Below are positions 16,751 to 18,730 of a stretch of DNA of 37,210 nt, in pieces. The first letter of the stretch is position 1; each line of letters begins with the position of its first letter. The stretch spans positions 1 through 37,210 of the forward strand of contig NZ_MEDO01000030.1 of assembly GCF_001724815.1 (NCBI RefSeq). The letters run 5' to 3'. Under the pieces are notes generated by a model. That model saw only the letters and a list, made by a program, of their open reading frames with translations, did no database searches and was not told the DNA's origin. A program made the translations under genes and the position numbers. This stretch comes from Arenimonas sp. SCN 70-307 (GTDB lineage: Bacteria; Pseudomonadota; Gammaproteobacteria; Xanthomonadales; Xanthomonadaceae).

Positions 16751-18730
16751 ATGTTTGAGCAGTACGGACTACATCTCGCGATCGCCTGTGCGGTGGTCGC
16801 CATCCTTTACGGCATCGTGGTCGCGAAGTGGATCGTCGGCCAGCCGGCCGGCAACGAACGCATGCAGCAGATCGCCGCGGCGATCCAGGAAGGCGCGGGT
16901 GCCTACCTGCGGCGCCAGTACCTGACCATCGCCATCGTCGGCGTGGTGCTGTTCCTGCTCATCGGCTTCCTGCCGGCGCTGGGCTGGCCCACGGCGATCG
17001 GCTTCGCGATCGGCGCCATCCTGTCGGGCGCGGCCGGCTTCATCGGCATGTTCGTCTCCGTGCGCGCCAACGTGCGCACCGCGCAGGCGGCCACGGTGGG
17101 CCTCAATGAAGCGCTCAACGTCAGCTTCAAGGGCGGTGCCATCACCGGCATGCTGGTCGTCGGCCTGGGCCTGCTGGGCGTGGCCGGCTACTTCTGGTTC
17201 GTCTCGGGCGGCAGCGCCGCCGACGGTGCCTCGGTGAACGCGGCCCTGCAGCCGATGATCGGCCTGGCCTTCGGTTCCTCGCTGATCTCGATCTTCGCGC
17301 GCCTGGGCGGCGGCATCTTCACCAAGGGCGCCGACGTCGGCGCCGACCTGGTGGGCAAGGTCGAGGCCGGCATTCCCGGCATGGCCGCCGACCTGTTCGA
17401 GACCTACGCGGTGACGGTGATCGCGGCGATGCTCATCGCCGGCATCTACTTCAGCGACTACGGCTGGAACGGCGTGCTCTACCCGCTGGTGCTGGGCGCG
17501 GTGTCCATCGTCGCCTCGATCATCGGCACCTTCTTCGTGAAGGTGAGCGCGGGCGGCAAGATCATGAACGCGCTCTACCGCGGCCTGGCGGTGTCGGGCG
17601 TGCTGGCGGCGGTGGCGTTCTATTTCGTCAGCACCGAACTCTTCGCCGACGCGCTGGCGATGCCGCTGTTCTGGTGCGCGCTGATCGGCCTGGCCCTGAC
17701 GGCGGCGATGGTGGTGATCACCGAGTACTACACCTCCACCGAGTATGCCCCTGTCCAGCAGGTGGCCAAGGCCTCGGAAACCGGACACGGCACCAACGTC
17801 ATCGCCGGCCTGGCCGTCTCGATGAAGTCGACCGCGGCGCCGGTGCTGGCCGTGGCCCTGGCGATCTGGAGCTGCTACGAGCTGGCGGGCCTGTTCGGCA
17901 TCGCCATCGCGGCGACGTCGATGCTGTCGATGGCGGGCATGATCGTGGCGCTCGACGCGTACGGCCCGATCACCGACAACGCCGGCGGCATCGCCGAGAT
18001 GTCGGGCATGGACAAGGAGATCCGCAAGACCACCGACGCCCTGGACGCCGTGGGCAACACCACCAAGGCGGTGACCAAGGGCTATGCGATCGGTTCGGCG
18101 GGCCTGGCCGCGCTGGTGCTGTTCGCCGACTACGCGCACAAGCTCAACGAGAAGACCGCGGCCGCCGGCGAGGCGGTCAACTTCTCGATCGACCGCCCGG
18201 ACGTGCTGATCGGCCTGCTGATCGGCGGCCTGATCCCCTACCTGTTCGGCGCCTACGCCATGCAGGCCGTGGGCCGCGCCGCCGGCGCGGTGGTGGAGGA
18301 AGTGCGCCGCCAGTTCCGCGACATCAAGGGCATCATGGATGGCACCGGCAAGCCGGAGTACGACAAGGCCGTCGACCTGCTGACCAAGGCGGCCATCCGC
18401 GAGATGATCCTGCCCTCGATGCTGCCGCTGTTCGTGCCGGTGCTGGTGGGCCTCATCCTCGGCCCGGCGGCGCTGGGCGGCCTGCTGATGGGCACCATCG
18501 TGACCGGCCTGTTCGTGGCCATCTCGATGTGCACCGGTGGCGGCGCCTGGGACAACGCCAAGAAGTACATCGAGGAAGGCCACCACGGCGGCAAGGGCAG
18601 CGAGGCCCACAAGGCCGCGGTCACCGGCGACACCGTCGGCGACCCGTACAAGGACACCGCCGGCCCGGCCGTGAACCCGCTGATCAAGGTCACCAACATC
18701 GTGGCCCTGCTGCTGATCCCGCTGCTGTAA
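16751..18730 (+). CDS. hppA: Proton-translocating pyrophosphatase lacking a conserved catalytic block
   Basis: A 659-residue polytopic membrane protein of the H+-PPase family, which couples PPi hydrolysis to proton export. The ATG at 16751 follows GGGGAGGG. Intact parts include [14 protein letters not shown] (195-205; D-x7-K-x-E motif), [30 protein letters not shown] and the C-terminal [21 protein letters not shown]. Lys439 in GNTTKA marks the K+-independent subclass. After Pro209 the frame jumps straight to [10 protein letters not shown]. The roughly 22 residues normally here, containing the DDPRNP and DNVGDNVGD pyrophosphate/Mg site, are absent and the frame is kept. With them the length would be about 681, as in relatives. 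As written the enzyme should be inactive. Confidence 0.93.

Follow-up and report, generated by a model that had tools for sequence, protein, structure and literature searches.

The hppA gene of Arenimonas sp. SCN 70-307 raises the question of what a membrane-bound proton-pumping pyrophosphatase (mPPase) can be when its reading frame runs on and its DNVGDNVGD block is missing. The original prediction offered a dead gene, an unusual non-catalytic role or an artefact. The window, meaning the whole stretch of DNA that was analysed, is an entire contig of 37,210 bp (C30) from an assembly of 2.93 Mb in 35 contigs, which is 99.98% complete with 0.3% contamination. The explanation preferred here, which is given an even chance, is a very recent and genuine deletion of 66 bp in this strain.

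The hppA Gene and Its Junction

The gene is located at 16751-18730 on the forward strand and is matched by both PF03030 (810.9 bits, cut-off 29.7) and NCBIfam NF001951 (1053.1 bits, cut-off 859). Its start, chosen from the sequence, is most likely the ATG at 16751, which gives a protein of 659 residues. The match to PF03030 falls into two stretches, with profile positions 1-188 at 16793-17377 and positions 211-645 at 17378-18715, and nothing between them; 22 profile positions are missing (genome profile scan). When the frame is read directly, VEAGIP is followed at once by GMAADLF, with no stop at the junction, and an alignment with solved mPPases places the break in the protein at the identical point. 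Frame reading, profile gap and solved structures therefore confirm the predicted in-frame loss of about 22 residues, DNVGDNVGD included, at 17377/17378 (forward strand), where 66 bp or 22 codons of the relatives are absent. Judged by eye with the nearest relative (G005) as proxy, the breakpoint is free to move over about 3 bases, so that the junction could equally be drawn at about four positions, of which the codon-aligned one is given here.

Both flanks of the junction are kept on the forward strand. According to published numbering (PMC6882861; PMC10897367), the 15 residues encoded at 17333-17377 would close helix 5 and open loop 5-6, and the 10 residues encoded at 17378-17407, among them D6.50 and E6.53, would be the part of helix 6 that starts at position 6.46. 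The signature of the K+-independent type, GNTTKAVT, is also present, including the residues K12.46 and T12.49 whose significance for this type of H+-PPase has been described (PMC10897367). An intact second copy elsewhere in the assembly is ruled out: the profile scan of the genome's contigs finds no second hppA, and a stretch coding for the DNVGDNVGD block, with up to two mismatches allowed, is absent from every contig.

Predicted Consequences for the Enzyme

Twelve acidic residues are described as lining the hydrolytic centre of mPPases (PMC6882861). Five of the twelve, E5.76, D5.77, D6.35, D6.39 and D6.43 (EDD...DNVGDNVGD), are absent from the protein; they were mapped by our own counting from the KVE motif, which agrees with the published positions of E5.71 and M6.47 (PMC10897367) and of E6.53 (PMC5150537). 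The nucleophilic water is activated by D6.43 together with D16.39 (PMC5150537; for D6.43 see also PMC10897367), and directional pumping needs the closure of loop 5-6 (PMC5150537). The end of this loop is missing along with about 11 residues of helix 6. Because the five acidic residues and this part of helix 6 are gone, neither hydrolysis nor pumping is expected: pyrophosphate hydrolysis and H+ transport are predicted to be absent from the protein as written, which should be dead. Its sequence outside the gap, the GNTTKAVT signature and the other conserved motifs are those of a K+-independent H+-PPase (PF03030), such as that of Pyrobaculum aerophilum (PDB 8b37), from which it differs in the 22 residues, the five acids and the helix 6 residues that it lacks.

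The AlphaFold model of the protein shows an mPPase fold (mean pLDDT 83.0, pTM 0.87), although all rows of the model's alignment except the first are intact relatives, so that the model leans to the normal fold. All 36 PDB matches of the model at E ≤0.001 are mPPases, with query-normalised TM scores of 0.83-0.92. Two stretches that lead up to the junction, residues 197-202 and 204-209, have a pLDDT below 50.

H+-PPase clones of eremophyte plants have been described with changed motifs in this part of the protein: GuVP2 lacks an 11-residue motif and GuVP1 carries a DN repeat in DNVGDNVGD (PMC3726567). These are plant genes with other lesions, and the available text of that report describes no loss of DNVGDNVGD.

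Distribution of the Block among Relatives

Of the 26 other genomes of the genus, 25 carry the block intact (24 in a first comparison and G015 in a second); in the remaining one, G023, the contig stops before the block. With none of the 25 readable genus mates lacking it, the loss is ruled out as a trait of the genus. The block is also present in all 80 GTDB loci, these being the best 80 of at least 590 relatives; 75 were recognised by pattern, followed by L050, L060, L070, L078 and L088. Within the family, 395 genomes were searched for shortened forms with a pattern bounded by GGCAAGGT and ATGGCNGC, and one matched, namely that of the strain itself; the pattern fixes some codons, so that it may miss unusual codon use, and detects gaps of 0-30 bases. 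A family trait is rejected on the same basis, no second case having appeared in these 395 genomes. In another member of the family about 0.87 kb interrupts hppA close to profile position 300, with the block present (L221; G240:C304:71000-75000).

In the order, 381 of 398 genomes have an hppA match. Thirty-five of them were re-examined (21 with two matches and 14 with a weak match), and the other 345, besides the genome under study, were judged by one strong match each, not all of them among the matches listed. Two of the 35, G067 and G200, lack the block in a gene that is readable on both sides. The gene of G067, which belongs to another family (L184), has lost the same segment and is otherwise readable, but the deletion is of 83 bp, out of frame and with different breakpoints; it is an event independent of that in SCN 70-307. 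This loss lies at about 1755-1765 of the locus (G067:C23:79000-83000), in a draft that is 93% complete. The genus mates of G067 in the scan, G095 and G101, show no hppA match and are only 86% and 67% complete. The gene of G200 (L196; G200:C128:3000-5500) shares an in-frame loss that covers the block, but about 110 profile positions (135-245) are gone, the subtype is GNTTAA, and the genome is in 440 contigs and 83% complete. No hppA match was found in 17 of the 398 genomes, including three that are each at least 99% complete (G355, G373 and G259); these are drafts, two of which may lack the relevant contig. In G277 the gene is a remnant that matches profile positions 617-644 only.

Scans with the shortened protein gave matches in 206 of 369 genomes of the class and 214 of 398 of the phylum, among the matches listed. 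No other in-frame loss of the block was found among the single matches opened in these two scans (G650, G711, G904, G831 and G1013), which detect in-frame losses only; G702 is a contig end, and the partial or weak matches G634, G765, G936 and G844 were left out.

Intact relatives had been proposed as proof of a sequence error. They were found, in nearly the whole genus, but they do not decide the matter, because a recent deletion in the strain fits them equally.

Age of the Lesion

The remainder of hppA is unworn, as had been predicted. Deleted columns aside, the strain's gene has no change at any of the 370 columns that are invariant among 25 relatives, and with the 22 residues added the protein has the usual length, rising from 659 to 681 residues. 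Its identity to an outgroup sequence (L038) is 0.818, level with the highest among the relatives. The dN/dS ratio is 0.18-0.35 in comparisons of the strain with six relatives, as against 0.17-0.33 in six pairs without it. The gene has no stop, frameshift or accelerated change, which are the signs of an old pseudogene.

From the absence of change at 370 columns and the ordinary dN/dS it follows that the loss is either very recent or unreal. With about 2.2 non-synonymous sites per codon and zero hits, we estimate a neutral drift since the loss of less than about 0.4%, measured over sites, which corresponds to a few percent of the length of the branch to G005 (dS 0.33). Judged from the sequence, the deletion, if genuine, is extremely young.

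A Hairpin at the Missing Segment

How the gap could arise is suggested by the relatives; the folding figures all come from them, because the letters lost in the strain are not there to be folded. Taken alone, the 66-nt segment of G005 forms a long hairpin from base 12 to base 65, with a total of -23.3 kcal/mol (DNA parameters), and among the 197 windows of 100 nt in the gene the best one at this site has the highest stability (rank 1). This window ranks first in 6 of 16 relatives and among the top six in 11 of the 16; its lowest rank is 45 of 197, in G026. Compared with shuffles, 138-nt stretches give z values of -2.07 in G005 and -0.37 in G026. In G005 the segment also contains a 12-bp tandem repeat. 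Inspection by eye shows about 3 bases at the junction in common with each side. It also rules out slippage between the 7-bp direct repeats on either side of the segment, because parts of both copies are retained in the product. The loss of a hairpin at a site of so little homology fits a polymerase jump, and such jumps can occur while the cell replicates its DNA or while a library is prepared.

Two genus mates (G015 and G023) and three further genomes (G157, G179 and G702) have contig ends in or beside the block, which hints that the block may be hard to assemble. In G209, G054 and G244 the contig ends at profile positions 182-234, and other breaks of hppA among the re-examined genomes lie elsewhere in the gene. 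The loci with contig ends in or near the block in five genomes are L190, L191, L192, L193 and L195; at the start of L193 a run of C precedes the gene.

A more general reading, which we regard as improbable, is that of a fragile site. In G+C-rich genomes the codons that the motif dictates would often fold into the gene's most stable DNA hairpin, and the block that is conserved most and can least be spared would thus also be the one most readily deleted, independently in SCN 70-307 and G067. Any such hotspot would be weak, because the 395 family genomes contain no second short-gap case.

Genuine Deletion, Artefact or Non-catalytic Protein

According to the preferred explanation, a hairpin-forming segment of 66 bp, whose codons specify the last part of loop 5-6 and the beginning of helix 6 on the cytoplasmic side, would have been removed from the genome when a polymerase skipped the hairpin by means of a few bases of microhomology. 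The shortened polypeptide may still be made and inserted into the membrane, without hydrolysis or pumping. Pyrophosphate would then be cleared by the adjacent soluble pyrophosphatase, and the proton gradient provided by the pair of pyrophosphate-dependent phosphofructokinase and H+-PPase would be forgone.

A genuine deletion, for which the balance stands level, is favoured by the figures of the assembly, by the loss of hppA elsewhere in the order, by the nearby ppa gene, by the stable hairpin seen in G005, by the independent loss of the segment in G067 and by the solitary character of the gap. In C30, 46 and 62 ORF pairs were compared, shadow frames included, for gaps of at least 6 residues; the hppA gap and its shadow frames are the only ones with fully conserved flanks. 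A control on 200 kb of contig C14, with 29 gene pairs shared with G005 and 86 with G026, showed two gaps in the strain (9 and 17 residues), whose flanks are 83-92% identical, and none with perfect flanks among gaps of at least 5 residues; like that on C30, this control is insensitive to out-of-frame losses. The same gap test between G005 and G026 gave one 7-residue gap in 34 gene pairs. An assembly riddled with such gaps is not what the C30 and C14 samples show. Against a genuine deletion count the extreme youth that it requires, which an artefact need not explain, the contig ends in or beside the block, the hairpin, which is not exceptional in all relatives (G026), and the lack of a second short-gap case among the 395 family genomes.

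The closest rival, to which we give somewhat less than an even chance, is that the strain's gene is intact and that library amplification or the assembler jumped the hairpin and produced a false junction. The block is present in every genus mate that can be read at this place, the rest of the gene is pristine, and in G005 no hairpin window of the gene is more stable than this segment, with its tandem repeat; the contig ends at or near the block in five genomes, and the existence of a second draft with a deletion at the same place (G067), point in the same direction. Template switching induced by inverted repeats is known from PCR, but the account of it describes inversions, not deletions (PMC5218489).

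Equally stable windows were, on the other hand, assembled without loss in G002, G007 and G058, and the C30 and C14 samples contain no further gap with perfect flanks. The microhomology at the junction also counts against an artefact. About 3 bases are too short for the overlap that an assembler uses, and an artefact would therefore need reads that bear the junction themselves.

The remaining option of the original prediction, a selected mPPase derivative that keeps the fold and the ion gate, has lost hydrolysis and serves another role, is very improbable: the retained frame, the mPPase fold predicted outside the junction and the purifying selection across the rest of hppA would agree with it, but the short-gap pattern, which fixes some codons, is matched by none of the other 394 family genomes, the five single matches opened from the class and phylum scans all carry the block, the same shortened form was not found in more than one genome, as a fixed paralogue or lineage variant would be, the invariant residues elsewhere are all kept, including catalytic ones that are needless without an active site, the pLDDT is below 50 just before the junction, and the lesion looks too young for a new function to have become visible. 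A dead gene and an artefact are the two options that stand.

Genomic Context and Significance

The neighbourhood of hppA indicates how a genuine deletion could be tolerated. The gene ppa, at 19424-19972 on the forward strand, lies 0.7 kb downstream and encodes a soluble inorganic diphosphatase (PF00719, 194.5 bits, the sole match in the genome; NF002317, 276.9 bits, cut-off 200) that can take over the removal of pyrophosphate. With this gene nearby, the loss of the pump would be bearable. A pyrophosphate-dependent phosphofructokinase, the likely metabolic partner of hppA, is encoded at 11997-13250 on the forward strand (NF010675, 625.4 bits, cut-off 273). In other bacteria such an enzyme has been described as paired with an H+-PPase, with a soluble pyrophosphatase alongside (PMC4287430). 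Working in reverse, the phosphofructokinase makes pyrophosphate that would feed the H+-PPase, and losing the pump would probably waste energy without blocking growth.

The segment 18919-19973, which contains an Hpt-domain gene and ppa, has the opposite orientation in G005, and in G026 about 15 kb separate it from hppA. A palindromic element is found at 18808-18848, where it adjoins this segment, and at 32115-32155, as an inverted pair of AGGGGGTCAGGTTCACTT. Its 18-base pattern occurs 23 times in forward and 19 times in reverse orientation in the genome, mostly in close inverted pairs, while a reversed control gave no match. From its sequence the element looks like a dispersed repeat of the REP type. 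Repeats of this type are linked to RAYT transposases.

The hppA gene as written is either a null allele or an error, and in neither case a new kind of enzyme or system. Should it be an artefact, it means that the strong hairpin at the DNVGDNVGD codons can yield false annotations of inactive H+-PPases. If the deletion is real, the strain is a clean natural hppA null that has a soluble pyrophosphatase gene and a gene for a pyrophosphate-dependent phosphofructokinase close by, and it could reveal how much such a cell gains from the pump.
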